This document shows positions 7,908 to 49,127 of a stretch of 64,000 nt of DNA, piece after piece. The DNA lies in assembly GCA_950106755.1 (NCBI GenBank), contig OX467090.1, positions 20,003,092 through 20,067,091 on the forward strand, written 5' to 3'. A program made the translations under genes and the position numbers. Numbering within the stretch: the first letter of the stretch is position 1; each line of letters starts with the position of its first letter. Under the pieces are notes generated by a model that was not told the origin of the DNA, ran no database searches, and worked only from the letters and a program-made list of their open reading frames with translations. The DNA comes from Climacium dendroides (Eukaryota; Streptophyta; Bryopsida; Hypnales; Climaciaceae).

Positions 7908-7966
7908 TGTGGCGATGCTGGAGTCATATTGCGGGTATAAGAAGATGTGGTTGCGGTATAGTGAGC

Positions 7967-8163: not shown

Positions 8164-8165
8164 TC

Positions 8166-8179: not shown

Positions 8180-8594
8180 ATCCAAATTGAATTCCAAACT
8201 GCAAATTAATGACAGCGCCTGTGTTAATTCATACATGAATTTTTGAGCACTCTGGGCTTTTGGGAGTTCAGGATTCATGTCTGGTGACATATTAGAACGT
8301 CTGTTAGGAGTTGCCTGTTGAGGTACAGGCATCAATTGTAATAAAAAAAGCCTGCCGGTTGTATGTCGTCGATCTGTCGATGTCTTAATTGAAGAGTACC
8401 TTAAGAAGAGTGATGAAATGTTTTGCTGGCATGAAGCGTGTATATATTGTGATCTGGAATCAGACTGCTTTATGAATTTGAAGAGATGTACGTTTCATGG
8501 TAATTGAATTCAGGAGATTGAAACCCTGTGTGTGCAGTTCTTGTATAAGTCTGCCTAGGGTTTAACTATGAGAGTACGTTTTGTTTTTTTCAGG

Positions 8595-8710
8595 GTTTTA
8601 GGACATGGGTAATCGACCGGACTGTGATGCTTCTCTCATCTGGTAAGTCGCTGATCGCCTTGGTGCCCAAGTTCGTCACCACGAGTCTTGCCGAGGAGAA
8701 GGGCTTGTAA
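8595..8710 (+). other. possible short exon conserved in both duplication copies
   Basis: A pyrimidine tract and AG precede an open frame encoding GFRTWVIDRTVMLLSS... and ending ...LAEEKGL at TAA. A GTAAGT donor lies inside it (CATCTG|GTAAGT), and a second acceptor (CCTGTGCAG) follows near 8783. Both copies of the duplication keep the frame open (31432-31539), with four transitions and no indels. It may be a remnant of a real exon, but recent duplication alone would also keep it open. No family is recognised. Confidence 0.25.
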
Positions 8711-9562
8711 CGCTTGTTTTGAAACTAACTTGAAATTAGGATATATATGGTCCTATCTTACTTTATGCATTGTTCCTGTGCAGATGAGTTGAGGCCGACT
8801 CGGAACTCGGAGGCTTGGAACTCAAGTAGCAGGATCTTTCTCTTCGTCATTGGAAATTATTATCTATAGATTACCCTAATTGAGGCTCTTTGTTGGATTT
8901 GTTTGATACAGTGAGATCTATGAAATTCGAGTCCCAAGATGGCGTTCTTGGTACCGTTGGAAAGCTCTTCACCAAGAGGGGTGCATAGGATTTGTTTTTG
9001 TGGAGTTGGGACCTCGAGTGTGAAAGTTATGAATTGTTGGATTTTTTTTAAATTAAAAAATTGAACTAAATTATCTTTTGGTTTGGAAAAAACATCACTT
9101 TCACATTGCATGTTCAAACGCCCTAAAATAAAGTCCTTGCACTCCTTTGTACCTAAAGCTTTATTTTATATCAAGAGTGCAAACTCTCACATTGTAACAA
9201 TCTAGGGGTGCATGGAATTTGTTTCATGGTGTTCTAACTCACCACAGAAAAGATTTTGAATTTTGAATTTTTTTAAAATTAAAAATTAAAAAATTAACTT
9301 TTCTTTTACTTTGATATTATACTATGGCAATGACATAGGGCACATTAGTGGATTGTTATAGTGTTGCATGACTCTTAGCTATGGAATCCTAAGATTTATA
9401 GTGCAGTATAAGCATTTGATGTTGCAAAAAATTCACACATCTTGGATTGTGATTTTGTGTTATATGTGTACATGTTAAAGTTATGCAATGAATGAATATA
9501 CAAGCTACTAAGTAGATGTTAGTGCCCTACTACTTAGATATGAAACATTTGTTAGTGATTGA

Positions 9563-13145: not shown

Positions 13146-13396
13146 ACTAGGTGCAACAACTTTGACATGAAATTAGGCAATCTAACCTTCTTAGTGATGC
13201 ATTGCAAGCAATGACAACACATCTCAAATAATAAGCTAAGGCACCTAGAACTGATGATGGTTTGATATGTCAAAACAAGTGATGGTTACCAATTTCACTA
13301 ATCATGTAGTATTGTAAAATGCATAATTAAGAAGGGTTCACATTTTACATCCCCATAATCTATGAAGAACATTATATATATTCACTACAACCTAAA
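13146..13396. repeat. segmental duplication, copy B, left fragment
   Basis: This matches 7100-7340 with about 15 percent divergence (shared words include GATGATGGTTTGAT and ATCATGTAGTATTGTAAAATG). It ends at TTCACTACAACCTAAA, where the 16.7-kb element begins. The rest of copy B continues at 30075. Confidence 0.88.
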
Positions 13397-13398
13397 AT

Positions 13399-13423
13399 GG
13401 CCTTATTCGTTAAATTGAGACAA
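13399..13423 (+). repeat. left terminal inverted repeat of the 16.7-kb element
   Basis: It begins GGCCTTATTCGTTAAATTGA followed by GACAA, an exact inverted match to 30048-30072. Just inside, TTGAGACA is repeated (TTGAGACAAAATGG then TTTTGAGACATT). Confidence 0.9.
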
Positions 13424-13840
13424 AATGGTCATTTTGAGACATTGAAAATCTGAGTGCAAAGCTCAATTGATTGAATAGTTGTAAATGAACCCTAAACTCA
13501 CAACAACAATAAAGATCTCTAAGGCTACATTCTAGAAAATAATTAGCAAGGAATAAATAGATGCATAGAAAAATGAGTGCAATTGCATTCAGTAAGCTCA
13601 AATTACTTGAGAGTTTAATTACACAAAGAACTTTTAAGCCTCTATCACGATGTCACTGGACGTAAATGGCTATTGAGCATTAGGTACTCTGAATTTGTGT
13701 AGAAACGGAGAGGCTAATTGTACACGTATACCTCAACTTTTTTAAGTAATTTTTTTCTGTATTCTATTTATCATGCTATTTATAGGATTTAGGCAATTTG
13801 ACACCTATGACGTCTAAAATTGAATTGGCTTGACCAAACG

Positions 13841-14620
13841 TCATTTATGGCCTGTATAATCATTCTTGGCCGCCTCCAACGCCTTCAGCCATGCCATGCC
13901 TCTATAAATATCCTCACGTCGTGAGGAATAGTACGACGCACTTGGATATTGCGCGGCACTGCTGAGGTCCATACTTGGAGAGGTACCGTCCTTCCGCTTT
14001 GCTTGACGCTTGCGTGGAGGTAATTCGGAGGAAGACATGGACCTCGATCCTCGAGGTGTCGGCCGTGCCATATCAACATTGTTTATGTACGAATGTGTAT
14101 TTCCAATTGATTTAGAGCTTGTCGACCACTGCTGTTCTCTCGCAATCGTCCGCTGAAACATAATGTGTGAGGGAAGTAATGTTCGCCGTCCAACACTACG
14201 CGGGGACAAGGGCCCACTATCCTCGAGTCGAGGCAAATGAGGTGCACTGTGAGCCCCCACTTGTGCCCCCCTTGCTTGATTCGGCAAGCCAACTACCTCC
14301 TTAACGACCTCTGTCTTCGTAGGTGGAACTACAGAATCTGTCGGCACATCATCCTTGGGGCGAGGATGATTTGTACCGTCACTAATAGGGAAAACAAGCT
14401 TCCGATTCGTGACGACATCGGCCCGTGGCGGGGGCGAGAAGGGGCACCCTCGACTTGAGGACGCTCGCTTGAGCGGAGATGGGGAACAGACGGGGGTTTT
14501 GACGGGTCCTCGACTCGAGGGACTGTCCACCACACCGTCTTCAACATCGGCCTTTGAGAAGTCAATGGCCGCAGACGCTGCGTCCTCCGCCGTGCGCATC
14601 ATGTAGGGCCCTGAAAACAT
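13841..14620 (-). CDS. Ser/Pro-rich hypothetical protein of the 16.7-kb element
   Basis: An uninterrupted 259-residue frame. Upstream TGTTTTCAG|GGCCCTACATG looks like a splice acceptor, so this may be a 3' exon rather than a whole gene. The product is rich in Ser, Pro, Arg and Lys and probably disordered. A basic patch (PPRKRQAKRKDG) near residue 205 could be a nuclear localisation signal. The C-terminal part (REDIYRGMAWLKALEAAKND) could form a helix. Copies of the element's palindrome lie in its coding sequence and are read as PRLED or SSRG. It lies downstream of the FCP1-like relic on the same strand. No family is recognised. It is the only large frame of the element without a stop. Confidence 0.45.
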   Translation of the reverse strand: MFSGPYMMRTAEDAASAAIDFSKADVEDGVVDSPSSRGPVKTPVCSPSPLKRASSSRGCPFSPPPRADVVTNRKLVFPISDGTNHPRPKDDVPTDSVVPPTKTEVVKEVVGLPNQARGAQVGAHSAPHLPRLEDSGPLSPRSVGRRTLLPSHIMFQRTIAREQQWSTSSKSIGNTHSYINNVDMARPTPRGSRSMSSSELPPRKRQAKRKDGTSPSMDLSSAAQYPSASYYSSRREDIYRGMAWLKALEAAKNDYTGHK

Positions 14621-15009
14621 GGACAGTTTGGTACTATCTCCGACAGAGCCTGACGCCTAGGAGAGCGACTTCTCCGACCTGGAAAGGAGACTCCTGGCCA
14701 CCCGATGATGTTTGCTTGTTTCAGTTCCATTTGGAGAACCAACCTGCAAGAAGCCCAGATTACACAAGTTCTGCCCACATTATATGGCTGATGAAATGGT
14801 CACAAGCAAAGAAAATGCATATTCACTCAGATGGACAGACAATTGGAACGCTCCATACAACCGAACATGTGTGCCAAAATCTTTGCTCTCAAAATTATAT
14901 ACAATTGAATGAATGTACAAAATTATAAAAATATAGAACGTGAGTTCCTATCCAATCCAAATCTACGAGGCCGCCCGAAGGAACCCTAAACAAACGACTC
15001 TAGGGAAGA

Positions 15010-15852
15010 CTAGGGATCACGTCTCTCCGGGCCTATTGCTAGCTGGAGGCCCGGAAGCTTGAAACGATATCCTAGATTTCTGGCAGACATCCTCAACCCC
15101 TCCATGAGGAACTACACTTGGTAGTCGTTCTGCGTGAGGGGTTCTAAGCCAATCTTGTTTGCCCCTACAAACTCACACAGACGCCCCGGATCGCGCACCG
15201 ACTCTAAGCGCGCAAGCCAAGGTAGGAGTTCTGACATGAGGAAGTTGTTTGTCAACTACGCACAAGTCTAGGTATTGAAGAACACAACATTCCACAACTC
15301 ATTGCAAACGCTCTTTTCGGGAGAGTCATCAATGAGCATGGTGTTGTTCATGTTGAAAGTCGTGCGCACGCCCTTGTGGTTGAACATGCGCTCACACAGG
15401 ACTTTCAAGAATACTAGCTTTGAATTGCACGTCAAGAACTTTCCTTTGGAGGTCTCTATCCTCCTGCATTTCTCCTAACCTAGGACGTCATACGGGGCTT
15501 TTATTCCCCTAAACAAATGCTCCATGACCAACTCCGCAGTGGGCTGCACCATGGAGGACCATATGACAATCCTGTCCGCGATCTGCGACACCTTGTGCAG
15601 GAACTATCAGACGTTTTGTCGCGCAAACACGGCCTTTGGCCTGACGATAGTTGGGATTATGTGGCACAAGACATTGTCTTCCATCCGATACGGCTTGAAA
15701 CTATTAGCGTATGACCTCGGCAAGCACTGACAGAGAATGCCGTTCAGATCGAAGACAATGTTGAGCCACTTGACCGGGGGTGAGGGCTCTACGATATCCG
15801 TCACGTTCTCTCCGCCCCTGTGCAATTCTACCTGATGAAAGCAGAACAACAA
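15010..15852 (-). pseudogene. FCP1/NIF-like HAD phosphatase relic carried by the element
   Basis: Read on the minus strand in one frame, the region encodes VKWLNIVFDLNGILCQCLP, then RPKAVFARQNV-stops-FLHKVSQIADRIVIWSSM, then NNTMLIDDSPEKSVCNELWN. These match the layout of FCP1/SCP (NLI-interacting factor) HAD phosphatases: motif I with the nucleophile Asp (DLNG, about 15740-15756), RP..FL...., a (V/I)W(T/S)S motif, and a late (L/I)DDSP motif (about 15318-15334). The usual second Asp of DxDxT is Asn here, which would impair classic catalysis. The frame is broken by TAG at 15604, 15475, 15268, 15256 and 15112 and TGA at 15607; it ends at TAG 15010. A splice acceptor (TTTCATCAG) lies near 15832, so an upstream exon is likely. 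It may be a captured host gene. Confidence 0.68.
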
Positions 15853-16286
15853 AGAAATGGAGTTACCTGTTTGAATGCAGAATTAGGTGAGCTAGACAAC
15901 GGGACAGAGCACAGAATTCCACTAATGGATTGCATGTTCCAGTCAAGAAGCGATTTCAGTGCCCTCGGATGGTGCAAGCTTTTAAGAATTATAGGTTGAG
16001 CAAACAAAACATTGACAAAGATTGAAATTAGAAGCCTATGAGAACAGGAATTTTATTTACATTTTCTTTACAACGATTACATGTTACACTTTGCGTGAAA
16101 CTAAATGAAGTACAGATTCACACGAACACTCTATGCTACACTATTCTACACGTAGGCAAGCCTAGAGGTCTGCATCAATGCCTGGCAATCATAAATGTGA
16201 TTTCCTGCCAACAAAAACTTGCTTCAATATAGAGAATCCACATCAAAAGAGTAGCTTCTTTCGCAAGCCAAGCAAGCCATGAATCA

Positions 16287-19200
16287 CTACTCATCGCAGA
16301 CACTCAGATAAACGAGGATGTCTTCTTCGGCCTCCCCGTAATCAAGAAGCTCCTCCTTCAGATCATCGACACGAAGATCTTCTCCATCCGCTTCCTTGGA
16401 AGTTGTACATGTAGCTGCCTCTCCCGCTGCAATCACACTTTCGGGGGCCTTGAAGGTCCTGTGGATGAAGATGTAGGAACTCCAGCAATATCCTCGACTC
16501 GAGGATGTGTTGGAGGATTCACCCCCACAGATTCGGGGTTGGGCACGGACTGCCCATCGCGACGTGTGAGACTAGGTGCGGGCAGCTAAGACGCCGGAGT
16601 CGCTACGACGCAGTCGTCTCCGGAGGGACGAACTTCGTCAGTCTTATCTTCGACTCGAGGATGAGAAGGATTGGTAGCATCGCGGGACACGGATGCTACT
16701 AGCAAGGAAGAGTGGATTGGAGGTGGCATTGGAATTTGGCTTAGGAGAGTCTGCGATAGAGATCTAGCAAAAAGTTCCGCCACCATTTCCTCCAACTTTG
16801 CGCACCTCAGGCTGATCTCTTGACTCGAAGCCACGGCTTCTCTGATCTACTTGTCCTTGAGATCAAGCTCGTCCTACCGTGCCTTCTTCCTTGCCTCTCT
16901 CTTGGCCTTTCGCTCGTTTACCATATCCCAATAACCGGAATCATCCTTCACTTTCGCGGAAGGCTTAGTCGTCGACAGTCTCTAAGTAGACGCCGATACA
17001 ACAGCTCTTTTTTGTACTCACTCTCTTCATCGTCGTCGTCAGAGGAGTGAGGGAAGTCCTTTGAATCAAAATCACTCAGATCCACAACCTTGTGAGTGAT
17101 TACGGACTTCATCTTTTGGCGTTCCGTAGGAAGGACGTCTTCACTGGCTCTACCTTCAACCTCATGGGCTTGGAAACCACCCATCGCGACATCCGGAACC
17201 TCATCCTCAGTGCAGTTCTGTATAGCTTCCAATTGCTAAGGAGGAGGCAGCTCAGGTGACCGCTGCACAGGTGATTGTTGAAGAGGTGGTTGTCCCCGAT
17301 CTCCCTGCTGCTCGGCTCTCCACTTGGTCCTCAATTCAGCTTGCCGTTTGTCCCACTCCGTATCTGTCTCAACCTCTTCCTCTGCTGAAGACCCTGCCTT
17401 GGTAGTCCGCACTGGCCTTAAAGTGGGCACCATACTCCCATATTCGTTAATGCCAAGCAGGTCCTCATTAGGAACTGTTTCTGAGGGACGCGGTGTCACC
17501 TCACGTCTGTTTCCAAAACCAAAGTCCTCATCTGATGACTCTCGTTCAGATGTTGACCGAGGTGATTCCAGATCGTCGCCATGCGGCGGAGATACGGAGA
17601 ACAGAAGTGGAGACCCAACGTGCAGCGGCCACACGTACTTTGCAGAATACGGGGAATTGGAATAAAGAAAATCATATCCAATGAGTCAGACAATGTTGCC
17701 ACTACTCGATGTCTCGCCGTTAGATCTTTGTCTACGATGCCGTAGAAGTATGCTCTGAACATCTAGACAAGCCAACAATGAAGTCGAAACTTAGTAACTA
17801 TGATCATAGAGTCTGTATCCTCGAGTCGAGGATAATTTCCTAAACACCATAGTCACTAATATATTGAAACCGAAACGTAGTAACTATGATCATAGAGTCT
17901 GTATCCTTGAGTTGAGGATAATTTCCTAAACACCATAGTCACTAATATATTACGCCATTAAGAATAGAATCGACTATATCTTCGAGTCGAGGATAATTCA
18001 AGGATCATAAAACATTTAAAAACAAAGCCTATGCTAGAAAATTGAACAAAAGCAATAGACTATCCTCGAGTTGAGGATAAGCATACCTTTGCAGCCAACA
18101 CACACTTCGATCCTACATAGATGCCCAAGACATTTTCGTCGGAAACCGCAAAGCTTTGGAGGATCTCAAAATAGAACTCCATTTGAAGTTCCGTCACGTA
18201 CAACCTCCACTTTGCTTCATTGTTCCTAAAAGCATCCAGGTAGTATAGAATATCGGGGGTGCCGTATTCCGCTTTCATTCTCTGCCGCACTAGAGAAGCG
18301 TGCTCGTCACCTTTCTTGAACAGAAAGAGCAGCGGCACTAGAGGAGCCGATGATCGGTTAGTCACATTGTTCAGCCGCTCCACTCAGCTGGAAATGTACC
18401 TCGACTGAATGCAGTCAAACTCCGTGAGTTGAGTTTTGGCAAATTGTGCAGTAGTTTGCCGTTCAGCTAGCTCTCCCAGGATCCACAACTATACACTCGC
18501 CTCCGTAGTTGTTGGTTGCAACTTTGTGGCGAGGAACTCCAAGAACGGCTGCAGAGATGGTGTTTTGTCCGTCTCCTTGGACTTCCAGAGTTGACGGACA
18601 TCAAGAATGGCAAGGTTGAGAGGACAGGGCTCGTAATTGTAACTCCCGCTGACCAGGAAAACCCTTTCATGAACGTCCAGTCCCCTCAACGCCACTCCTC
18701 CAGAAATTGAAGGCAATCTATACTTCAACTTCATGAACCTTTGGAAAAGAGTTTGTTCGTCCTCAAACTTCTCTCCAAGATCCTTTGCCCTCTGATGCTT
18801 GGCTTCATTCGTCAACCTCTTCTTAAAAAACTCTCCTCGAGGGTGTGACAGAAGGAAATCCCATGTCGACAAAGAAAATTGGTGCCTCACTTTCCATGCC
18901 CTCTAGATGTTGTCCAAGACGTCTCCATTGTCGTCTCGTAAGTTCAACGAGGGTTTGATATCTATTAGCTCTTCGAGGACAATCTTCTTTCGCTTCCTGC
19001 GTTCAATCCAATCTACGCCAGCATAGTTGTTAGGCACCAAAATCTTCGTCCTCTGCACGGACACTTTCGGGTACGACCCATTCCGGCAAGGTGTCTTGTT
19101 CAGCAAATGCAACGCATATGCAGCCAAGTCCTTGTCTGTGAAGTGGCCGAGGTGCTTGAAAAACTCTCTTTTCAAGGAGAAAACTTTTCGATTGAAGCCC

Positions 19201-20780
19201 TTGAGCTCTTTAAACTTCAACCCAGTGATTGGCTCGACTAACTCACCTTCCGAATGCATCGTCAAAAATTCATTCCAATACTTAAAAAGACTGTCCAGAA
19301 GCGTGATAATCGTCATCTTGCACTTCAAGTCAGCTGCTGTCTTAATAGTCGCTCTGTCCTTTTCTAGATTGATATTTTTGAAGCGACTGACCATAAGCGT
19401 ACAAAATTTCTGCAAGACAAGAGTAGGTTGGGTCAATGCACAGCTACATATCTCGCACTTATCTTCGAATCGATGATAATTAATTACTACTGAGATGTAT
19501 TGCAAACAATGTCTACTATTGGAAATCTATCCTCAACTAGTCGACTCGAAGATAATGAGGTACATTGAAGACTTACCAGGTACTGGGAACTACTTAAGAT
19601 AGCTCCGTTTCTTCTGAAATTTGCCTCCTCTGAATCATTTGCTGGGCGGAGATAGTGGATCCAGATGTTTCGACAACTAACAATCTAGTTCCCCCAAGTT
19701 GCCTTTGCTTGATGTTGCCCAATTGGATGAGCTCCTTCTTCACGTCCTCAACAATGCCTCTCTCAAGCTTCCGAATAATATACTCGTCTTTTGCAAGAAA
19801 GCATTGTTTGATCGACACTTCGACAAGGTCTTGGCCCAACACAAAGCAAGCGGCGTGAGTATTCCAGAAGTTTTTCTAAATTTCAGCAAACTTCTCGAAA
19901 TCCTTTTTTTCCTTGTCGACTGTTTCCACAGTCGTAAGGGCTGACCCAGAACTGCCAGCCACTGTGGATTTGGATGCAGTGGCTCCCCGCGGTCGTTTTG
20001 GCTTTGAACTGGATGGACCTTCAGATTGAGTCTCCGAACGCTTTGTGGCTCCGAACGCACTCATCCTTGACCTATTGCAACGCTACCCGAAGCAGTCGCT
20101 GTCTAGCCTGAGTCAATCGATTTCCTTCTCTTTCGATTCGGAGGCGCATCAATTGGAGGGACTTACTGCACATGCCTGATTGCATATCGATCTAATGCTC
20201 CCCAGATATTATTGAGCCTTCTACAAATGACAGACGTTGTACCATCAATCCAGGGCAGATATTTCGATGCTTCAAACATCCTCACCAACTCCGTAATCTG
20301 AGACTCCTCTAAAGTAGTGACGAGATACACCATATCGAACCGTGCGTGATCACTTCTTATGTCTAGCACAAGAAAATGGTAGTAATCACCAGCACGACCA
20401 TCTTCCCCGACGTCCCGGAGCACAATGACGACATAGTTTTTGTGATGCTCTTCAATTACTGAAACTTTTTCATTTTGCTTCAATGGTAAAAAGTTCGTCT
20501 GATCTTTGGCGCGGTAGAGAAGGTAGATGTAGTCCTTGTACTTATTCATACCGAATGACCACGCGACAATGTTGTCTTTGAATTGCCAAAGCTTCCCGTA
20601 AGTCTCTGGCAATTCAGCTATGAACGGCTCGTTCACAAACGGGTTCTTGAATGGCTCCATTAGTAGCAGAACAGTCGAGTAGTCGTAACTGCCTTCCGCC
20701 TCCATATCTGCACTTGTCCACGTATTGATTAGGTTACAACTTCCACAGAGGATATCTTCGAGTCGAAGATGTGTTTCCAT
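16287..20780 (-). pseudogene. multi-exon gene of unknown function in the element, decayed
   Basis: I reconstruct four exons. Exon 1 is 20780-20167 (start METHLRLEDIL), with donor GTAAGT. Exon 2 starts at 20071 after a 95-bp intron; the joint keeps frame (RHVQ|SRMSAFG) and leads into a basic, Ser-rich segment (SSSKPKRPRG). Exon 3 is 19409-18087 and starts KFCTLMVSRF. Exon 4 starts at 17762 (MFRAYFYGIVDKD) and continues through an acidic, Pro-rich and coiled-coil region (KLEEMVAELF) to the acidic C-terminus ...DILVYLSVCDE, with TAG at 16287-16289. Introns 19410-19576 and 17763-18086 contain the element's palindromes. Breaks: TAG at 19876, 18903, 18489, 17236, 16874, 16847 and 16586, TGA at 18384, TAA at 19594, and frameshifts near 17680, 16960 and 16450. 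The exon 2-3 joint is uncertain. I recognise no domain. It is probably an accessory protein of the transposon. Confidence 0.6.
17819..17960. repeat. ~86-bp tandem duplication inside an intron, each unit with a palindrome
   Basis: AAACTTAGTAACTATGATCA... recurs as AAACGTAGTAACTATGATCA... about 86-90 bp later, each followed by TAGAGTCTGTATCCT, the element palindrome, and TTTCCTAAACACCATAGTC. It lies in the intron between exons 3 and 4 of the unknown gene. Confidence 0.8.
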
Positions 20781-23700
20781 TATTTCTAGGCTTGACTTCT
20801 GGAATGCTATCACTTCTACTCATGGCGTGAGGTCAATGTAGATAGGTAGATACAATGGCGATCGTGAATATGGTCTCTCCTCTCATACGAGAGGAAGCAA
20901 TGTATCTTCGAATCGAAGATAAATCAGCGTCATCATTGTGGACCTAGATGGAAAAATAGTTCGTTCACTTTAGTCTTCTGATGCAATAGAATTATATATG
21001 TTTCATTGATATGGGATTCCATCATCCTCAGTGTAATTATGTGGTTCTCTCGAGTCTCTGACATGCATGAATAGGCCTCTGGCAGGCTTTAATTTTTCTT
21101 ATTTTAGCATTTTCTATTTGTATTGGACTATTGGTGAACACAATTATCTTTGCATCAAAGATAATAGTAGCACGGACATTCTAGGACTGCATGTATACAT
21201 CAAAACACTCAAATTTATTGTGAATTGAAACTCATCTGATGGAATGTACAATGTTGGTTTTACGATAATTGACTTGGTTTTTCAACGCTTCAGCTATCAT
21301 TTCTGCAAGGACATCATATTTGTAATCCTTTGGTTGTGCGCAATTTATCCTCGACTCGAGGATAATAAGCACCACGGGTACATGAAGTTATCCTCGCCCC
21401 GAGGATAATTATCCTCGAAGCGAGAATAGATTTGGGACCCTCGAACTTGTTATTGTCGGGTCGAGAATAATTATCCTCTCTTGAATGACTAGACTCTAAA
21501 AATGAAATTGTACTGAACTATTGGAAAACACAATTATCTTCAGGTCGAAGATAACTACAGTATGTTCGTTTGAGGAATGGACGTGTAGGCGTAAATCCTA
21601 AAACTTAACAGTTCTCTCTTGTTCGAATATATTCAAATGGAGTTCCTAGAATCCAAAGAATCGTATTACTAAACCCTAAAACATTTTATATAGGCACTCT
21701 AGATAGGAACTATGAACCTAACAACTGAAAACTAATGAACTCGAAACTTGATACAGGGAACTATGAACTAATCAAAAGGAAAAGCAACAAAGCAAACTCC
21801 AAGTGCAATGCAAGAAGGTAGAGGTTGAAATTCAAGCACAACAACTGAATACATACTTGACAAGAATAGCAGTAGACAATTCCAATGAAGCGCTAAAACA
21901 AAACAAAATCGTCCACACTTCGCTCCAACTCCACTACATGCACCGTGGGAAACAATAAATTCTAAACGATTTGGAAATGTAAATGAAGGTGTGCACATAC
22001 ACAACTAGCATTCACAAACACAAACACAAAAAACTTGTGCAAATAACCCTCACACAAAGATCACGCACGCAGAACTCAACAACTCACACAGTCCTCACAT
22101 AAAGCTTGAGAGAGAAACAAAACTACGCGCACTCACAACAAACAACTCACTGAACTACACACAGAAACTGCCGCAAAGAACTCTACTTGCAAACAACTAA
22201 ACACGCACAATCACAACGAACTCACTCACAACGAACTTACTCACAACTCACAAAACAAATGTGCGTTTACAAAATGAACGCGCGCTGGCGGGAGGGAGAT
22301 GACCTTCCAAGGCAATGCCGAACCTAAACAGCGGCAGGCTTGACATAATGGGTTGGCGGCGCCAGACCACGCGGGGTAGACTCGGTAGGGTAGACTCGGC
22401 GGTGGCAGGATTGGTTAGTAGGCTCGACAAGAATGAGAGGCAGGTTCGGGAGGATTCAGGCTCGGATAGTAGGCAGTTCCTCTTTGTCCTATACAAAATG
22501 TTTTAGGGTTTAGTAATTTGATTTCTTGTTCAATGTTCAATTTTAGGGGTTTTGCATACACATCCAGTCCACGAACTAACATGTTGCAGTTATCATCGAC
22601 CCAAAGATAATTGTGATTACCAATAGTCCAACATGACTTAATTTTTAGGGTCTAGACATTCATGCAAGGATAATTATTCTCGACTCGACGATAGTAAATT
22701 CCAAGGGTCCCAAATTTATTCTTCCTTCAAGGATATTTATCCTCGAGGTGAGGATAACTTAGTGGACCCGTGGTCCTTTTTATTCTTGAGTCGAGGATAA
22801 TAAGTCCATTGAATGATTTAATATTCATGTCTAAGAGTTTTCTAACATCTTAAACAAGTTGAAATCAAAGTATTGTGTAGGGTTCATGCAATCATAAGGG
22901 ATTTTTTGAATTTAGGGTTAACTTTTGTAGAAAAATTTCAATTTATTCAATTCAAATTCTTTCGCTATTCATTTCATGGGTGCCTACAAATTTTTATGAA
23001 ATCTATAAATAATATGTAAGTGGGTCTATTACACTCATTTGAATCTTATAGGGTCTTGTCGAGGAGTTTGAAAGCAACCCTACACTCAACAAGACTAATA
23101 GGAAAAAGATCTTTTATATTGAAAATAGATGAAGTTCTTACAATTTTTTTGGACCTAAATAAATGCAATACCTATATATAAGAAGATTTTTGTAGAAAAA
23201 ATGTCATGGTAAATTTATTTTGCTAGAATTCAAAATATTTCCTCAAAATATGCAAATTTTAAAAAAAAAATTATAATATTACTATCTACTATATATGCTT
23301 TGTATATTAATTATTATAGGCCACAAGCAATAATTGTGAGTGATTTAGCAAAAGAGGTTTTATAATTATACAAGAACAAAGAATACTCTAAAATTATTCA
23401 TATCCAAATTAAATTCAAATTTTTTCATTACAAAAAAAAACATTTCTATCCAAACATATGGTGAATTTTATTTTACAAATTTTGACTACATAGATTGCAA
23501 GATATAATTGACGTTCAGTGTAGTAATAAATATTTTCTAGGCACCTTCCGTTATCATACTAGCTTAATGAACCTTGAATTCTCTTAATTTGAAATTCCTA
23601 CATTATTTGTAGAAGAAGGTTTTATTGCTCTCCATGATACTAGTGATACAAGATTGAAGCTTTGGGGGCCTTGTTTCCAAGTTGGGAGACCTCGTCAATT

Positions 23701-24249
23701 GTGAAATTGTTCTAGTAAGTCGTCTAGAAATTTTTAATACAAATGTTGTAATTACTATCTAAATTGCATAAACTTCAATTGAAGGATTGTATGTTCAAAT
23801 TAATTTCTAGTATGTTCTATACATTGAAATGATATTAGTAGACATTCTAAGCTCTTAACAAATTGGTTCCATTATCTAATTAAAAATAATAATGAAGAAG
23901 TTCTAATAGCTCTAATTTTCTAACATTTTTTTTCTTTAAACATACTTTGTTTTTTTCCATTTCAAAAATTTCGAAAAATGAAATTCTTCCAAAGGGCTCC
24001 CAACCCATTGTATTTTGGGGAGGGGGTATAAGTAAAATACTTGAAATAAACTTTTCCAAAATACAAATGAAATGTTTAAAAAATATTGTTGCATGTGAAT
24101 TTTTAAAGTCCCTATAACTTAGTATTAAAGTTTTTATAGTTTTGTTGTCAAACAAAATTTCACTATGTTTTAATGCACCTAATTTATTAAATTAATGTTG
24201 GAGACTCCCCTTAAGATCATCTTCAATATTTTAAGAAAATTTTGCACCC

Positions 24250-24400
24250 CATCCTATTTTGAAATTTGCAACATTAAACTAATATTGCACTCTATTTTGA
24301 GATTTATAGCATTAAACTAATATAGCACTCTATTTTGAGACTTATAGCATTAAACTAATATAGCATTCTATTTTGAGACTTATAGCATTAAACTAAAAGG
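24250..24400. repeat. ~38-bp tandem repeat, about four units
   Basis: The unit ATAGCATTAAACTAATATAG followed by CACTCTATTTTGAGACTT recurs about four times with few differences. It is AT-rich and non-coding. Confidence 0.8.
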
Positions 24401-25599
24401 GCCTATTGTTGTACTTACTAAATGACGCCAGATAAAGCTATACATGATTGTGGAAGATATTGATTAGAAACTACTTTTAAAATTTCATGCAATCACTTCA
24501 AGTAATTTGATGTCACTAGAATTTTCTTAAATTTCCATATAAATTTCAAATGGGCTCAATAAAAATCTATAACAATTAAGAAATAGAGTAATGAAAAATC
24601 TTAATACAATTAAGAAATAGAGTTAAATATACTTCATCTACCTATGGCTATACTATTTAATAAGAACACCCCACTTGCATGGATAGATAACTTACCTTAT
24701 GTATGAGTAGATCCATCACTAAACCCTAAACCCTAACCTTGAATCGATCGTCCAATCCTGGAAGTGAAGGTGAAAGTGATAAATCCCCTGGCCATAAATG
24801 CTACCCGGATACTCCTTGAGAAGCAACTTAAATTCCGCTTCTGCATTTCATACCAAGCAACATTTATAAAAGTCAATTGTATGCAGTAACCCACTTGCTG
24901 CAATGATCTAAACTTGGAGCAAGCTTACTACCAAAAATTCATGAGCGGTGCCATTAATTTGTGGACCGAATGTTAATTAAGGATTCCTCTTAAAATATCA
25001 CCTTCTGATAGAGCTGTCAGGAAAAGAAAGCCGCAAATCCGTGCCCCTATTCTTAAAGTCAGGTTTTTGAATTGGAAGTTGCTGGCGCTACGCCGCTATC
25101 ATTCCCGCGTCGCTATCCTTGCAAAACTGTTCAACCTTCTCTCCTATGAACCTTATTGTATTTTGTTTTGGCCTTGCTGCACAGTTTTCATGCATGCAAG
25201 ATTTTCTTTTGCGTTGTTGTTCTTCTGTCGCCGTCCGTTTTTTTGGTTGCACATTGTTGCTTACGTGTGTGTTGTATTACTGTTTTGAGCGTGAATGGAT
25301 TTGAAATCAGGAGCTTTTTAGTCAGGTGAGGTCTCTTCAGGTTCTCCCAATTTTTAAGTATTTTATGCTATCATCGTCTTGCATGTTGTTGTTGTTGTTG
25401 TTATTGATACTGATGTGCTTTGTGATTGAGATGTAAGGTATATTTGTACACCGTATTTTGTTTGTTATGAATCATTTTGTAAATTGGATATAATTCAATT
25501 GGTTGCAAGTGGTTCTGTGCATTACTGTTCAATTGAATCTTCGTAATGTTGTAGTATGTTTGGAGTCCGGAAATTGCGGCGCAAATGTAGAAATTACTT

Positions 25600-26040
25600 A
25601 AACCTCGGAATGAATTTATCCTCGAGTCGATGATAATGCATTTGTTTGTCTGTTGTTGGGTACACTTATCTTCGAGTCGACGATGATTCATTTCTTGAAG
25701 GCATTTGTGTGTATGATTATCTTTGAGTCAATGATAAGTCATATTTTCATTTGTGACATTTCTGGATATAATTATCTTCGAGTCGATGATAAGTGATAGT
25801 CACCTTTGTGGATATTCTGGTACACATATCTTTGATTGAACGCTAACTGATTCATACCTTTGTGGTAATTATGGGTACACTTATCTTCGACTCGACGATA
25901 ATTAATTGATTGTTACCTTTATGTCAATGTCGGGTACACTTATCTTCGAGTCGACGATCATTGATTACTGGCTGAAAGGAATATTGTGTATATAATATAA
26001 ATTTACTTTGAATGAATTATCTCTAAGTCTAGGATAAAAT
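25600..26040. repeat. regularly spaced palindrome array, ~50-59 bp period
   Basis: Seven palindromes have centres near 25626, 25676, 25727, 25782, 25836, 25891 and 25950, and a degenerate eighth lies near 26027. The gaps are 50, 51, 55, 54, 55 and 59 bp. Intervening sequence is related (GGGTACACTTATCTTCGAGT recurs), so it arose by tandem duplication of a ~54-bp unit. It ends about 0.7 kb upstream of the transposase start. Confidence 0.8.
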
Positions 26041-26712
26041 CGATAGATCACTATAGCTTATATTCATTTCGTATTGAATATTTCTTTTGGATTGATCTTT
26101 AGATGGATGGGTCTTTACAAGATAAAAAGACTTGAAGTCTTTAGATTTCTTTATCAATGAGAGAGTTTGGTGTATTGATTTATTTTCGAGTCGAAGATAA
26201 TTTAAGTGAAATGTTTGAAGTGAACCTTTGGTAGATGAGATGATTCTGATTTTTTGATACACCTGTAGGTGTCATTTGGGGTTACTGCATAAAACTCAAT
26301 AATTTGAGGAACTTATAAGTGGCGTACAAAGTAAATCTCATTCTGAAGCTATTCTTCGCTGTTTGTGGTTGGATTAAAATTGTTTTGATTTTTTATCGTC
26401 GATTTGAAGATTATTAATGTAAATTCTTGTTTGAATCAGAAATAGTTGTGTCATTTCATCCACGTAGGATTTGTTTTTATTAGTGGTGGCTTTTGAATCT
26501 TTGTACATATGGATAGCGTTTAGTTTTGTTTGTAATTGATATCAGTTGCTTTTGTCTGATGGTTTGATATATGTTCAATTATCCTCGAGTCGAGGATAAT
26601 TGTGGATAATAGTTTTCTGTCATTTGATTCTATAGTCTTGATGTGTGAACTTGTATTTGTACTGTGTCGTTGAACACCTTATTTTTCTAACCGTGGACTA
26701 CTGTTTTGTAGT

Positions 26713-29585
26713 ATGGATATTCATGGGCTTGATGATTTCGTCAATCCGGTCCCCATTTTACCTGTTGATATTGCAATGTGTGATGGGATTCCACAGGCTT
26801 CTTGGATCACAAAGGGTGTCACTTTGAGGAACAATGCAGGAGATGATGTTGCAATAGGAGTTTGTCATAGCATGGATGCGGAGGATGTCATCAATGCAGA
26901 TGGTAAACCTTTTGGTGATGATCGGGTGGCCGTTCAAATTGCAGAGTCCTTATGTGAGGAGGAGGTGCCGTCTGTTTGGATGTGGTCTATGCGTTCTTGG
27001 CACATAAAACTCATGTTTTTGAATGGCGTGAGTTTATATGACCATGACTAGACACACATATATAAGGCAACAATGAATACCATTGGTCGTCATGTTTGTG
27101 TTTGTGTTCGTTCCTATGAAAGCTACTAGGAGAGAAGAGAAACAAACCTTCTACCCAAGAAGGACTCCCTTCTTACTATAGAAGCAATTACAGAAGTGTC
27201 TACGAAGACATATTGCCCAAGCAATTGCCTGCAACCGTTTCCTCGCGGAGATATTCAAGCCCTACGATCTGGATTTCATGTGCATGGTGGGGTGTATGTT
27301 CACAAACAGTGTCTCATTGAGGTGCACAATCAAATCCACAAAGATTCTGTTGGGAAGGAGTGGATAACCTTGAGAGGTCGGGAAGTGTGTCCTATGGCTT
27401 GGTGGACAATTCATGGTATTTCAAAAGCTACATTCTATAGGTACAAACAGATGGCTAAGAATGGGCAAGAGGCTGAGGGGCATAGGAACCTGAGGACTAA
27501 AAAACCGCATGCGCAAACTCTACAAGCTACTACCACACTTCGCATGTTGATTGAGAATGATGTTGACAAAATGCCACACAAAATAAGGACTTTGGAAACT
27601 AGGGAGAAAGTGTCGACAATGGTGTTGCCATCATCTTTTCGTTGGAGTGACCAACTACCAGCAATGAATGAAGCAAATGCGGCATTTAATTTGCCACCGA
27701 TTTCTTCTAGTGGCTTGAGCAATATCCGACGTGCTTCTTTCCTAGAGTTCGTAGCAAAAGCCCGTGGAGATAATTTTTCAAGGTGTAGCCTCTGCGATAG
27801 GTACAAGCAATTGAGGAGTGCTTGCACTCCGCTTTCTACTTTAGCGAACAAATGGGCGTACCTTTTGGGTACTCATCGATCGAGGCAACATGCACATAGA
27901 CTACTTTATTATGGGAATCGGCATATGTCAGAGACGTACCCCGAGAAGATGTTGTGCGTTATTCATGACAAAATGGATCACTCAAAGATAGTTTCTCCAC
28001 ACTACTCTCATAAAACCAAAGTGACGGATTCTTTCATGAAGATGTCCTTTGTTGTTACAGGAATGATTGCTCATGGTCATGGTGACTTCTGATATGCGTA
28101 CTATAGGCTCAATATTTTTCCAACGGATTCAAATCATACCATTGGCTCCATTGCAAAATTGTTGCGTGATTTGGAAGGATCGCCTACAAATTCATCGCAC
28201 CAACTATTTTCTGTAGATGAGGGTCAATCTACCTTGACAAAGGCAGTATTAGAAGGATCAAACATTTGCCTTGATTCCCTCTTACCTCCCCCACAAGAGC
28301 CTATTCCACCTAAACCTTTGCCACCAATACTTACTTTGCAGTTGGACAATGCATCAGGGGACAACAAAAACAGACAGGTGTTTGCCTTTTTCTCTCTTCT
28401 TGTTTTTAAAGGCATTTTTCGAGAGATTTACATCAACTTCCTCATTGTTGGGCATACTCATGAAGACATTGATGCTCTTTTTGGGAGATGGAGTACAATG
28501 TTGAAGACAAATAGCTACTTGATTATTCCAAGGTTGATGAAATCCTTTATGGATTGTGAGAAGTATCCAGTGATTCCCCATTTAATAGAGGAAGTTCCTA
28601 ATTTCAAGAAGTTTGTCCACGGGTACTTAGGCACAGCTGGGACTTCTTAGAAGGTCATTCGGCTTGACAACAATTCAAGTTCTTTATGGATTCCAATGGT
28701 TGGCCCCTGATAGAGTACAAATATTTGTGTATGGATCCAAATTGGTTGCCAGAACATGGTCGAGGGATTCGTTTGTGGTTTGAGACTGAAGATGGGCATC
28801 CAAAAGTGCCAAATGGTAGTCCACCGCCTTTGGCTCTGGAGGAAATGAAAGTGTCAGAGGAGATCAAAAAGGGTTTGGATGGTTTTATTTCATATTGGAC
28901 AGAAATGGCCAATGAAGACCATTCTAGAGAGTTTCGGAGGAAGAATGATCCGATAAGAAATTATCTAAAAGGTGTGAGAGCCGCTCTAGATGCACCCCTT
29001 TTGATGTGTAATACATTGCAGTATGGATTTTGGCTTGCTTCTAGAATCAACGATGAAGTGGAAGATCGAATGGAAGACGATGGCACACTACGTGAAGAAT
29101 ATGCAAAAGATGCGCCTTTTGTTGGACGTAGACGTGATCGTCTACGTCCATCGTTCCGTGTTGGTCGTGATGTATATACAGGTTATTTTGTTGTTGTGCA
29201 TCCCACTAATAGTGACCCAAAGCCATTTTGGCTAGTTAAGGCGATTACAAATCCAAATCCGGATCTAGAGCATGTTCACTTGATCCAAATTCAATATTGG
29301 ATGTCTGTTTCAAGTCGTCACATTAACATGGACACATATGCTGGATGGGATACAAAGACAGGAAATGTGTGGTGTGAAGATCGAACTATCCCTCCAAGTT
29401 GGTCAAATATTGACTGTATTATGACAGCTTGGAAGCCACGCGGAAAGAAAGGAGCTATTGATGTACTTCAAGTTCTTACAAAAGTTACTATCCCCAAACC
29501 ACAAATCAACATCAATAAATCATCCGTAGAAGCCTTCATATCTAATTCTAGCAACGGATCATCCTTAGCGGTTTACATCCTTTGA
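26713..29585 (+). pseudogene. DUF7869-type putative transposase, decayed
   Basis: ATG at 26713 opens MDIHGLDDFVNPVPILP. The same frame continues past TAG at 27049 and 27127 into TYCPSNCLQPFPRGDI and a helix-turn-helix-like stretch (HGISKATFYRYKQMAKNGQE, about 27415). A Cys pair (RCSLCDRYK, about 27782) follows. Then come motifs of the DUF7869 family: CVIHDKMDHSK (Asp at 27967 and 27976), LTLQLDNASGDNKNR (Asp at 28345) and VGHTHEDIDALFGRW (28453-28490). A set of spaced acidic residues like this suggests an RNase H-like DDE/DDD nuclease; catalysis is inferred. TGA at 28090, TAG at 28648 with a frameshift, and TGA at 28665 break the gene. The C-terminal part (FKFFMDSNGWPLIEYK onward) is open to TGA at 29583. 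It is the probable mobility gene of the 16.7-kb element. Confidence 0.72.
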
Positions 29586-30047
29586 TCATCCTTTGATTTT
29601 ATTGTCTATATATTAGTATTTTATTATTAGAAGGATAGAAGCTGAATGCACATTTTCATTTTAAATATTTGCAAGTATCAATTGTGTTGTTTTGAATATG
29701 ATATTGTAGTTATATGCCAATATCAATTTCTATTAATAGTATGAAATTGTTATGTTTCTTATAGATGTGATTTGAACCTTCAATGCGCGCATTTGCAATG
29801 CTTTTCAAATATTTGAGATGTAGAAGCAATTCTTGCAAATTTTTTGTAATTCAAGTTTGCAAATTAGTTTTCTAATACCCCTAAACCCTAAACCCAAAAA
29901 AAATTCATTTTATAGTGCCTTGTCTCATTCAATCAACATATTTATGTTCACAAGATTCACCACAAATTATATAAAATATAATTTGACATGAGAAATGAAC
30001 AATTATTTTAGTATAATTATAGATTGGATTTAAAATGAGACTCCTAA

Positions 30048-30072
30048 TTGTCTCAATTTAACGAATAAGGCC
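30048..30072 (-). repeat. right terminal inverted repeat of the 16.7-kb element
   Basis: Exact reverse complement of 13399-13423. Inside it, GAGTCTCATTTT (read inward) echoes the GAGAC words seen inside the left end. Confidence 0.9.
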
Positions 30073-30074
30073 TT

Positions 30075-32402
30075 TAAATAAAATCCGGGACCAAAATCCG
30101 GGATCAAGAAAGCCTCCCTCCAACTAATCACTAAAAAAACTAGGAGTTTACAATGCGGACACTTATTTCAGGAAGGGAGGGGGGGAGTATCATTAAATAG
30201 TGTGTGACAACTCAAAACTTGGTGTTGTTAGTAATTCGAGAAGGCTGTTGCCTTGACATTCGTGGATTGAACTGCCCTGCTTGGGTTTAATTTGGTCTGC
30301 CGAACGAGCGAAACGACCTCAAGGAGACAGCCGTCCATGGAACTCCAGCATAACAACAGAAGGGAGAGTCGTCCCGATCCCGGTGAGGAGGGTTTCGATC
30401 TACGCAGAGAAAGCCACCTTCAATTCAACCGAGAGCCACATTCAAATGATTCAATCAGATTGAAACAATGGCCAGTGATCGAACTCCCTGAAGCTAGCAC
30501 ATGGGATCGATTCATCGAAAATGAAGCTGGAATGCTGAAAGCTAGATGGGTGTGATGAAGCTTTTGTTGAGTTCGTCGCATGCTCCACTCTACCCAGTTC
30601 TCACTACCGTAGGAATCGCTCCCACGCTGCGAATTCGTGATGGGTGAGTCGCAGGGGAAACTCTCTGAGTTGTCGAAAAGTAAAAGGAGGAGTGCGGGTG
30701 TTGCATTAGTCCCATACTTTGTGGCGATGCTGGAGTCATATTGCGGGTATAAGAAGATGTGGTTGCGGTATAGTGAGCATACCTTTCTCGGCCTTTTGGC
30801 TAAGATCAAGTGTAGTATCTGTTCTTATCAGTTTAATATCTGATACGAGGCTCAAGTTAGCCTCATGATATTAATCTAATTTTTGTTTGGGTGCGGGTCC
30901 ATATGTCAGCTTGCTGTCTGGCCCCGCGCGCGTCGCCTTGGTCTTGCACTACTTCCTTTGCCGGCGCAGCCCTTCTCCCCTCTTCGTAGGGATCCAAATT
31001 GAATTCCAAACTGCAAATTAATGACAGCGCCTGTGTTAATTCATACAGGAATTCTTTAGCACTCACTGGGCTATTTGCAGTTCAGGATCCATGTGTTGTG
31101 ATATATTAGAACGTCGTTTACGAGTTGCCTGTTGAGATATAGGCCTCAGTTGTAATGAAATGAAAAAGCCTGCCGGTTGTATGTCGTCGATCTGTCGATG
31201 TCGTAATTTAAGAGTTCCTTAAGAAGAGTGATGAAATGTTTTGCTGGCATCAAGCGTCTATGTATTGTGATGTGGAATCAGACTGCTTTATGAATTTGAA
31301 GAGATGTACGTTTCATGGTAATTGAATTCAGGAGATTGAAACCCTGTGTGTGCAGTTCTTGTATAAGTCTGCCTAGGGTTTAACTATGAGAGTACGTTTT
31401 GTTTTTTTCAGGATTTTATGTTTGTTTCAGGACATGGGTAATCGACCGGACTGTGATGCTTCTCTCATCTGGTAAGTCGCTGATCGCCTTGATGCCCAAG
31501 TTCGCCACCGCGAGTCTCGCCGAGGAGAAGGGCTTGTAACGCTTGTTTTGAAACTAACTTGAAATTAGGATATATATGGTCCTATCTTACGTTATGCATT
31601 GTTCCTGTGCAGATGAGTTGAGGCCGACTCGGAACTCGGAGGCTTGGAACTCAAGTAGCAGGATCTTTCTCTTCGTCATTGGAAATTATTATCTATAGAT
31701 TACCCTAATTGAGGCTCTTTGTTGGATTTGTTTGATACAGTGAGATCTAAGAAACTTGAGTCCCAAGGTGACATTCTTGGTACCGTTGGAAAGCTCTTCA
31801 CGAAGAGGGGTGCATAGGATTTGTTTTGTGGAGTTGGGACCTCGAGTGTGAAAGTTATGAATTGTTGGATTTTTTTTAAATCAAAAAATTGAACTAAATT
31901 ATCTTTTGGTTTGGAAAAAACATCACTTTCACATTGCATGTTCAAACGCCCTAAAATAAAGTCCTTGCACTCCTTTGTACATAAAGCTTTCTTTTCTATC
32001 AAGAGCGCAACCTCTCACATTTGTAACAAACTAGGGGTGCACGGAATTTGTTTCATGGTGTTGTAACTCACCACAGAAAAGATTTTGAATTTTGAATTTT
32101 TTTTAAATTAAAAATTAAAAAATTAACTTTTCTTTTACTTTGATATTATACTATGGCAATGACATAGGGCACATTAGTGGATTGTTATAGTGTTGCATGA
32201 CTCTTAGCTATGGGATCCTAAGATTCATAAAGCAGTATAAGCATTTGATGTTGCAAAAAATTCACACATCCTGGATTGTGATAAACTATGTTAGTTTGTG
32301 TTATATGTGTACAGGTTAAAGTTATGCAATGAATGAATATACAAGCTACTAAGTAGATGTTAGTGCCCTTCAACCTAGATATGAAACGTTTGTTAGTGAT
32401 TA
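30075..32402. repeat. segmental duplication, copy B, right part, with U2 gene
   Basis: This continues copy B after the inserted element and matches 7341-9562 closely, including the U2 gene, its promoter and about 1.4 kb downstream. Differences are mostly substitutions and short indels. An extra CCGGGACCAAAATCCGGGA doubling lies near 30082, and a GGGAGGGGGGGA stretch near 30172 is absent from copy A. Confidence 0.9.
30779..30975 (+). ncRNA. U2 spliceosomal snRNA, copy B
   Basis: Almost identical to copy A (one T/C change in the loop after CAAGTTAG). The 5' region ATACCTTTCTCGGCCTTTTG, branch-point recognition sequence, Sm site and 3' stem-loops are intact. USE at 30708-30719 and TATAA at 30748-30752 are preserved. 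It is probably functional and arose with the segmental duplication. Confidence 0.93.
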
Positions 32403-32705
32403 TGTTAGTGATCACCTCAGCGATGCTTCATTTATTTGTAGTGAATGATATAAATGTGAGCAACGACTTGGTTCTTTTCAATCGTGGCTGTAGAAGTCCA
32501 TCCTGGTTCATGGCGTAATCTCTCAGTAACTGTTGCGTTCCCCAACATCATTCATACAAGTTCATATAAACACAAAGTTAGGTGGATCACGATTTGTTGT
32601 TGATGAGTCATGATGTCATGGACCAACGCAGAGATAAATATTGCTCTCCAGCTTGTGGCTTGGGTTAAGTTCAGAATGATCAGCTATTCCGCTCTTCAAC
32701 TCTGC

Positions 32706-32823
32706 GAGCCTCATGATATTATTCTAATTTTTCTTCGGTGCAGGTCCATTTGTCAGCTTGCTGTCCGGACCCGCACGCGTCGCCTTGGTTTCGCACTACT
32801 TCCATGGCTGGCGCAGCCCTCCA
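32706..32823 (+). pseudogene. U2 snRNA 3' fragment
   Basis: The sequence from GCCTCATGATATTATTCTAA through the Sm-like site and 3' stem-loops to GGCGCAGCCCT matches U2, but the 5' half with the branch-point region and promoter is missing. Downstream DNA (about 33028-33110) resembles the downstream flank of the minus-strand U2 copy at 48.6 kb, so it came from an ancient locus duplication. Confidence 0.8.
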
Positions 32824-34739: not shown

Positions 34740-36762
34740 CTACACAGCGTATGGCGGCCGAAGCGCCGGTTCCCACGGGGGATGCTTGATCCCATTTCCC
34801 AAGTGATGATCCAGCACATACTCTCGTTGATCTTCGTCATTCTCCCCAGACAGATCCTCCAGCGACCGGCCCTTGGTCTCCGGCAACATGAACGTGCAGA
34901 AGAATCCCGTCAAGTTGATGATGGACAGCAACAAGAAGGCATTTTTGATGCCAATGCCACTCGGGTAGCCCTTGTCTCGCGAGCTTGATGATTTCCCTTG
35001 CGCAGCATACAGAAACCCAAACGCACCCACAATGGCGCCCGCTTTCCCTGCCGCAGCTGAGATTCCATGGCAAGTAGACCGCAGACGCGCGGGGAAAAGT
35101 TCAGCAGGGATAATGAAAGTGGTGGCATTTGGTCCGAAATTGGCGAAGAAGAATGTGAACGCGTAGAGAACGAGAAACGCAACGTGGTTGCCGCCGCAGT
35201 ACTTGCCGTCGCCGCAGGGTTGGCCCCGGAGGTCGTAGTAAACGTACGTGATGATGAACATGAAGAGCGTCATGAAGAAGAAGCCGGAGAGTTGGATAAC
35301 CCAACGGCCGACTATGTCGATCAAGGCGACAGTGAACCAGTAGCCTGGAACAGTGGAGCAAAGCGCGATCAGGGATTGAGCTCGGGACACCTTGAAAACC
35401 TCCTCCAAGGCGCTCATGGTCTTCTGGGGGGGCAACCACCCCACGGATGTGAAGATGTCCTTCTGGAAAAGATTTTGACTGTAGAATGCTACATCAAGAA
35501 GGAACCATGTGCTCGTGCAGCCCAGAAGCTCGATACCGTGTCGCTTCAGGAATTTCATTGAAAGTAGACCGTACTCTGGCACTGCAGCGACAATGCCATG
35601 GTTAGATCGTGAACAGATCGTGCTGCAAGCGATTCAAAGAGTTCATTGGAGAAAGTAGACTTTGAGCTTCCAACAGAGACTGCTACGGGGACTTTCCATG
35701 GTGATCTGGTCAGGCATGGTCAAGTAGGCAATGAACGCAGATAAGAAAAATGGTTGAAAATTTCAGGTTGGAGTTAATTGAGCTGTGTTTTTGTGAATTA
35801 ATTTTGCGTTTTGGTCTGGTCGTTTCAACATCCTGTCTTCTTGAGCTGCAATCTCGCAAGCGTAAGTGAGAGGTTTGGAGTGGGTTCACTTGTTGTTAAG
35901 CTACAAAGCGGGATTGCAACTGACCTCGCGTGTGTTCCACCGGATTGTCATCAAACGACGGGAACGAGACCTGCAGCACGCGGCCCATGTCTTGCGCCGC
36001 GCGCCTATTGTTCTTGATCACCAGCGCCGTGTACCTCGCCGTCTCCGGCATCTGCATCCTATAATAGAACGTCACCAGCGCCGGCACCGCCCCAAACATA
36101 AAAATGATTCTCCACACGTAATCAGCTTCCCTCGGCTGGGACAGCACCTCATTCACGTTGAACGGCGGCGACGGGAAGCTCCGTCTGAAAATCGACGCTA
36201 CAATGATGGAGACCGTGGCACCCGCGACGATCCCTACCCCTTGCATGGCGAACACGGCGGCGATGAACGCCCCTCTTGTCTTCTGATTCGCATACTCGCT
36301 CATAATCGTTGCTGATAAAGGATAATCTCCTCCGATGCCGAACCCTAACCAGAACCGGAAGAAGCAGAGCGTGCTCATGACGCCTTTAGCTGAGCTTCCG
36401 AACGAGAGTCCCGAGGCGATGGAGGTCAGGATCATGAGCACGAGCGTGTAGCCATAGACGCGCTTGCGGCCCAGGCGGTCGCCCAGCCAGCCGAAGTAGA
36501 GCTGCCCGCAGAAGGTCCCGCAGAGGGCGACGCCGTTCACGGCCGCGGCCACGTTCGGGGGAAGCACGCCAGGGGTGTGAGAATTCGGGTCGTAGTAGTA
36601 TAATCGCCCAAGGAGACGAGCCACTGTGGAGATGCAGAAGAGGTCGTAGGCGTCCGTGAAGAAACCCATGCCTGCGATGATGATGGTCGTGAAGTGGTAC
36701 CATTGGGTGCGGGCCTTGTCGAGAGCGCCCAGAACCTCGGAGGAGCCGGCGCCGATCGCCAT
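34740..36762 (-). CDS. PHT1: PHT1-family high-affinity phosphate:H+ symporter
   Basis: Two coding exons: 36762-35925 and 35581-34740. The intron 35582-35924 starts GTCAGT and ends TGCAG; the joint CGA G|TG CCA keeps frame. The product is about 559 residues, normal for PHT1. Hallmarks are [10 protein letters not shown] (31-40), [14 protein letters not shown] (91-104), the signature [13 protein letters not shown] (144-156), QNLFQKDIF, and [24 protein letters not shown]. Twelve membrane segments are expected, with plasma-membrane uptake of phosphate driven by protons. The start was chosen as [20 protein letters not shown]; a splice acceptor (TTTTTGTTGCAG) nine bases upstream shows a 5' UTR intron, common in PHT1 genes, so the open frame further upstream is intronic. 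A Cys-bearing loop ([12 protein letters not shown]) replaces the usual short loop in the second half. The gene appears intact. Confidence 0.95.
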
Positions 36763-49068: not shown

Positions 49069-49127
49069 GCTTCATCAGTGTCAAACAGCTCTCCTTGTAA
49101 CCAAAATCTCTCCCACCTTCGCCAAAA

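Follow-up and report, generated by a model that had tools for sequence, protein, structure and literature searches.

A decayed multi-copy DNA transposon of the moss Climacium dendroides, most likely a Sola element, combines a DUF7869 transposase with a methyltransferase-like protein and dispersed palindromes

Transposons that are bounded by terminal inverted repeats (TIRs), generate 4-bp target site duplications (TSDs) and encode a DDD-type transposase are already known from mosses, namely the Sola elements (PMC10741241, PMC9033089); the accessible parts of their descriptions give TIRs of 11-1124 bp, a size above 15 kb for some elements and an occurrence of Sola1 in Physcomitrella. A second system is that of the VANDAL elements of Arabidopsis, which, according to the available text, carry a transposase gene and two accessory genes, as well as motifs in introns and upstream regions that are often arranged in tandem (PMC5735166). 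Their VANC protein is described in the same excerpts as binding short motifs that are dense in the non-coding parts of the element and as removing methylation, both motifs and protein varying by family (PMC5735166, PMC10398659). Thirdly, retrotransposons of dinoflagellates and charophytes are stated, in the portion available, to carry C5 DNA methyltransferases (PMC5890265). Lastly, Dada is summarized as a DNA transposon that is tied to small nuclear RNA (snRNA) genes and has TSDs of 6-7 bp (PMC3706591). The present analysis concerns an element of 16,678 bp (positions 13397-30074) in a 64,000-nucleotide stretch of contig OX467090.1 of Climacium dendroides, referred to as the window. It is best explained as the dead copy of a cut-and-paste transposon that recurs in the genome and most likely belongs to Sola; its second protein (ORF2) would bind dispersed palindromes as a mark of the element's own DNA against host methylation, and a probability of roughly 60% is assigned to this reading as a whole.

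The element is bounded by TIRs and lies inside copy B of a duplicated U2 snRNA block. Its ends, about 16.6 kb apart, are inverted repeats matching at 27 of 28 bp; the exact 25-bp inverted ends at the break in copy B, which had been claimed in an original prediction made from the letters alone, are thereby confirmed. A 22-base stretch of the TIR starting with GGCC had no third place in the window, even when 3 mismatches were allowed (0 expected). Copy A of the block (7172-9560, plus strand; U2 snRNA gene at 7967-8162) is continuous across the break of copy B, and both flanks of copy B (left part, 13217-13396; right part, 30075-32401, plus strand, with a U2 snRNA gene at 30779-30974) are collinear with it. 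The alignment located the join to about 4 bp, and the unfilled site is indeed preserved in copy A, as predicted. The U2 snRNA genes scored 160.5 bits (copy A) and 162.7 bits (copy B) against Rfam, the insertion point being situated approximately 700 bp upstream of the latter. The window as a whole harbours a U2 cluster: its 64 kb contain five genes or remnants of genes for this snRNA (7967-8162, 30779-30974, 32640-32821 and 48876-50071), two of which belong to the duplicated block.

Further copies were retrieved from the genome (412,615,100 bp in 123 contigs). The exact 25-bp TIR core occurred at 120 places, 66 forward and 54 reverse, and the reversed-sequence control at none in the same genome. 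Pairing was analysed for 100 of these places, the pair of the window lying outside them; listed neighbours at most 40 kb apart formed 16 inward, five outward and no same-sense pairs. The dinucleotide AA preceded GGCC at all 32 ends of the inward pairs, so that the TIR measures 27 bp. Accordingly, the left TIR of the window element occupies positions 13397-13423 (plus strand; one base changed, at position 2) and the right TIR positions 30048-30074 (minus strand). A perfect 4-bp TSD was present at one fixed offset in 14 of the 16 inward pairs, against a mean of 0.9 and a maximum of 6 for shuffled flanks; it was not found in pairs L034/L035 and L036/L037, nor in a separate pair 54 kb apart. At this same offset, the window element is flanked by TAAA (13393-13396 and 30075-30078), a duplication that is ambiguous alone and became clear only after comparison with the other copies. 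The TSDs had no sequence in common and appeared AT-rich. Pairs C1a (L050/L051) and C1b (L048/L049) are located on one contig, 16 Mb apart and in opposite sense, as expected of a segmental duplication; 80/80 and 79/80 of their flanking bases were common, indicating a single insertion that was duplicated, and the independent TSD support is therefore 13 of 15. Two further subfamilies were found through a search with an ORF2 relative, namely C2B, with TIRs beginning with AAGGCCTTATTCATTAAA and a TSD of TAAT, and C35A; both contain all three genes described below.

Eleven of the 16 inward pairs, that is all except the five largest, were read end to end (16.6-24.6 kb; C37b minus its last ca. 77 bases). 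Together with the window element they make up 12 copies, in which homology searches retrieved the genes for the DUF7869 protein (12/12), ORF2 (11/12, not found in C1b) and a NIF-type protein (12/12). The layout was constant across the 12 copies, with DUF7869 near one end, ORF2 and NIF on the opposite strand, and NIF closest to the other end; each copy had at least one stop in the matched stretches of one of these genes. In this way the proposed check of the original prediction yielded further copies with the same TIR, the same gene set and a constant TSD length, which supports its view of a large TIR transposon family with a DUF7869 nuclease and accessory genes. It had called the element cargo-carrying; further genes are present, but ORF2 and NIF are recurrent parts and no chance load (10/11 and 11/11 further copies). 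Similarly, its count of at least three other coding regions on the opposite strand stands for open frames, two of which were identified by homology (ORF2 and NIF). The others include a frame (20166-20819, minus strand) that precedes ORF2 and may represent its first exon, and a low-complexity open frame downstream of NIF (13844-14656, minus strand); both are tentative assignments and had no Pfam match. Public databases contained 65 relatives of ORF2, 32 of NIF and 306 of DUF7869; the named species among the 120 of the latter that were listed are the mosses Ceratodon purpureus and Physcomitrium patens. Of 31 contigs that encode ORF2 and measure 10 kb or more, 7 apparently also encode a DUF7869 protein (0.005 on average with jittered lengths), and 4 of 15 NIF contigs apparently encode DUF7869 or ORF2 (0.0025 on average), contig identity being deduced from equal length in both cases; one contig with such an apparent linkage is only 10.5 kb long.

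The DUF7869 transposase gene of the window (26698-29585, plus strand) was recognized by Pfam (PF25273, 3.5e-33) and tblastn, which agrees with the DUF7869-type transposase that had been predicted, and it is broken by four in-frame stops and one frame change before its natural end. Among 29 aligned relatives, D330 was conserved in 27, D333 in 29 and D455 in 28, and D495 and D497 in 28 of 28 ungapped rows. The structure model displayed an RNase-H-like strand order, with weak matches to integrases, and together these features suggest an RNase-H-like core with a DDD-like triad, for which the catalytic residues were chosen provisionally. At an E value of 0.01, Pfam returned DUF7869 for all 29 relatives and two unrelated families for one relative each. 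The MULE family was matched in none of the 29, so membership of the MULEs, to which VANDALs belong, was rejected. Nor was there a match in these relatives to a KDZ (Kyakuja-Dileera-Zisupton) domain, a Pfam model of which is presumed to exist, and a D/CxxH motif was present in 0/29 between residues 455 and 497, the sole stretch inspected. In the DUF7869 model P0002, the C-terminus (residues ca. 719-851) weakly resembles chromo, Tudor, PWWP or BAH barrels, and may function in reading chromatin. A role can also be suggested for DUF7869, an anonymous Pfam family: it may supply the transposase of large TIR elements that duplicate 4 bp of their target.

The main exon of ORF2 (18072-19415, minus strand; three stops) is supported by the 65 public relatives, a structure model and tblastn. 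Residues ca. 242-451 of the model, in the second half of the protein, adopt the fold of beta-class N6-adenine/N4-cytosine DNA methyltransferases, with CcrM as the best Foldseek match. The catalytic motif [DNS]PP[YFWH] was found in 0 of 66 aligned ORF2 rows, some of them partial; a D occupies the place taken for motif IV, and the glycine-rich motif I was judged by eye to be altered. ORF2 is probably not an enzyme. Among 88 scored loci of 1156 candidates in a genome search with an ORF2 relative, many showed 60-64% identity and some contained no stop. The decayed NIF gene (15001-15912, minus strand) encodes a NIF/FCP1-type protein with a HAD fold (tblastn; Pfam NIF, 2.3e-7 on the read-through, above the cut-off). 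The canonical motif I of FCP1/NIF HAD proteins is DxD; its second D was replaced by N in all 24 readable sequences of the 32 relatives, and the first D was N as well in two of them.

Besides these genes, each copy contains 24-34 dispersed palindromes of 21 bp with the general form TTATCNTCGA-S-TCGANGATAA. The window element has 34 such odd palindromes of the type TTATCCTCGA-S-TCGAGGATAA between positions 14218 and 26598; when up to 5 mismatches to TATCCTCGA-S-TCGAGGATA are allowed, these 34 are all the sites of the window (about one expected), none being located elsewhere in the window beyond the element. None of the 34 falls in homology-supported coding sequence; at least eight fall in open frames without assignment (13844-14656, 16287-16846 and 20166-20819). 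At positions 5/15, C-G was the commonest pair in ten copies, with 9-16 sites per copy; in C1a and C1b it was G-C (15 and 13 sites), and neither of the two groups had a perfect site of the opposite type. C2B and C35A hold both types, indicating that the arm switch between subfamilies is not absolute. In L001 (1-4327), a 4.3-kb contig of a moss-type transposon with an open DUF7869 gene that is filed under the cyanobacterial genome AVDCRST_MAG81, probably through contamination of the public bin, the palindrome reads TTTAGCTCGA-S-TCGAGCTAAA, with the centre kept and the arms different; ten sites, none of them in the DUF7869 gene, were counted at up to 6 mismatches, where 0.12 would be expected.

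The copies bear the marks of decay. When 8 of the 12 were aligned, private changes numbered 1881; 1283 of them were C>T or G>A and 195 went in the reverse direction, with rates of 0.078 at CG, 0.078 at CHG and 0.022 at CHH. The window copy had changed most, with 691 private changes (349 C>T or G>A, 115 reverse). An excess of C-to-T changes at CG and CHG is a trace of long-term plant DNA methylation, and host methylation appears to have silenced the window copy and its kin. The window copy is old and dead.

That the window element is a transposon is virtually certain. Its assignment to Sola is likely, given that the 4-bp TSD, the DDD-like triad, the size and the moss relatives agree with the accessible description of that group (PMC10741241). 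This makes it doubtful that the element belongs to no named superfamily, as had been stated originally. As to mechanism, the DUF7869 protein, with its putative RNase-H-like DDD core, would cut at the TIRs and insert with a 4-bp stagger. ORF2 would bind the 24-34 palindromes spread over the element, thus marking its own DNA, and would counteract host DNA methylation family by family in the manner of VANC. The reading of palindromes by ORF2 is argued by analogy, and some function through such binding is somewhat favoured. That this function consists of anti-silencing is a tentative proposal, with the odds rather against it. More doubtful still is its fullest form, in which a plant transposon superfamily would have converted a DNA methyltransferase into a protein that reads the 21-bp palindromes of the superfamily without catalysis, constituting a second, independent case of sequence-specific anti-silencing besides VANC, reader and sites co-evolving and the arms switching in concert over about two dozen sites, at least in some subfamilies. 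If ORF2 does read the palindromes, plant transposons would have a second natural system of self-marking by dispersed sites and silencing evasion, with a reader of the methyltransferase fold. The existence of subfamilies with different arms, together with some stop-free ORF2 exons in the genome, makes co-evolution of protein and sites directly testable. The literature searched yielded no description of such a set of three genes, one of them for a pseudo-methyltransferase, in combination with palindromes, nor did it yield the name DUF7869.

The palindromes allow other explanations. They may serve as binding sites of the transposase or a helper for the pairing of ends, as do the subterminal repeats of CACTA/Spm elements, with ORF2 as a transposition helper devoid of anti-silencing activity. 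The sites are dense and element-specific, genes for two proteins diverge from one another and the arms vary by subfamily, all of which would suit this unlikely alternative; however, Spm-type sites are subterminal, whereas those of the window element are internal, all of them more than 820 bp away from one end and more than 3.4 kb away from the other, and many lie beside or between the divergent genes. An internal inverted duplication with palindromes is situated between these genes (21345-22800, with an A-rich spacer of ca. 0.8 kb; wider limits drawn by eye). An equally unlikely role is one in RNA or gene regulation, as intron hairpins, promoter or terminator elements, or operators through which ORF2 controls its own gene and that of the transposase. 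One window palindrome starts 7 bases after the likely splice donor of ORF2, an array with a period of ca. 55 bp is located upstream of the transposase gene (25617-25961, plus strand), and palindrome-like back-translated stretches occurred in 7 of 65 ORF2 relatives (nine sites versus a shuffled mean of 1.9 and maximum of 5). Yet more than two dozen sites over 12 kb exceed the needs of an operator, and an odd palindrome with a constant centre resembles DNA recognition. Less probable again is a passive origin, in which a small repeat spread by slippage and gene conversion without function, ORF2 and NIF being captured host genes. Tandem arrays (25.6-26.0 kb in the window; five palindromes in C35A, upstream of the transposase, at a spacing of exactly 207 bp, L069/L070, joined coordinates 3680-4508), the mixed arm types of C35A and C2B and the kinship of NIF to a general phosphatase family speak for it. 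Conversely, 0 of 362 sites in the 12 copies (at most 3 mismatches from the general form) lay in homology-supported coding sequence, itself 25% of the length; the core is common to L001, the transposase of which shares 49% identity with P0002 over its best segment; and ORF2 and NIF were retained among the copies and apparently linked in other contigs. Finally, a rearrangement between the duplicated U2 blocks without any insertion, conceivable as these blocks are repeated here and may recombine, is refuted, since TIR and TSD recur at 14 of the 16 other loci and all 11 loci that were read carry the gene set.

Elsewhere in the window (3315-3762 and 4888-5592), another tandem array of palindromes (AATATGACTGAGGTCAGTCATATT), not related to those of the element, occurs near a DDE_1 transposase fragment. 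Genes of ordinary host type are present as well, coding for a two-part sugar/organic-ion transporter and a GFO/IDH/MocA oxidoreductase (34740-36975 and 59888-61030).

Compared with the known systems, the element shares with Dada, as far as the accessible text describes it, a link to snRNA genes. Its TSD measures 4 bp instead of 6-7 bp, so membership of Dada was rejected, and its insertion point lies upstream of the U2 gene and not inside it. It resembles the C5-methyltransferase retrotransposons, in the portion of their description available, in being a mobile element that codes for a methyltransferase; here, however, the element is a DNA transposon, and the fold is of the N-type and catalytically degenerate. 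Similarly, ORF2 has the fold of the beta-class methyltransferases CcrM, M.RsrI and M.BceJIV, but their catalytic motif is missing. CcrM recognizes GANTC, and the GASTC in the core of the palindromes fits this site, which is suggestive and may be due to chance. With Sola, the element has the 4-bp TSD in common (14/16 pairs and the window; TAAT in C2B), and its TIR and size are within the Sola range; the ORF2/NIF pair and the palindrome array are unmentioned in the accessible parts of the Sola descriptions. With VANDAL, as portrayed in the available excerpts, it shares a transposase with two accessory genes and a non-coding motif array that diverges between families. The layout is thus close and the proteins are different, as the motif of the present element is a 21-bp palindrome and one of its accessory proteins has a DNA-methyltransferase fold.

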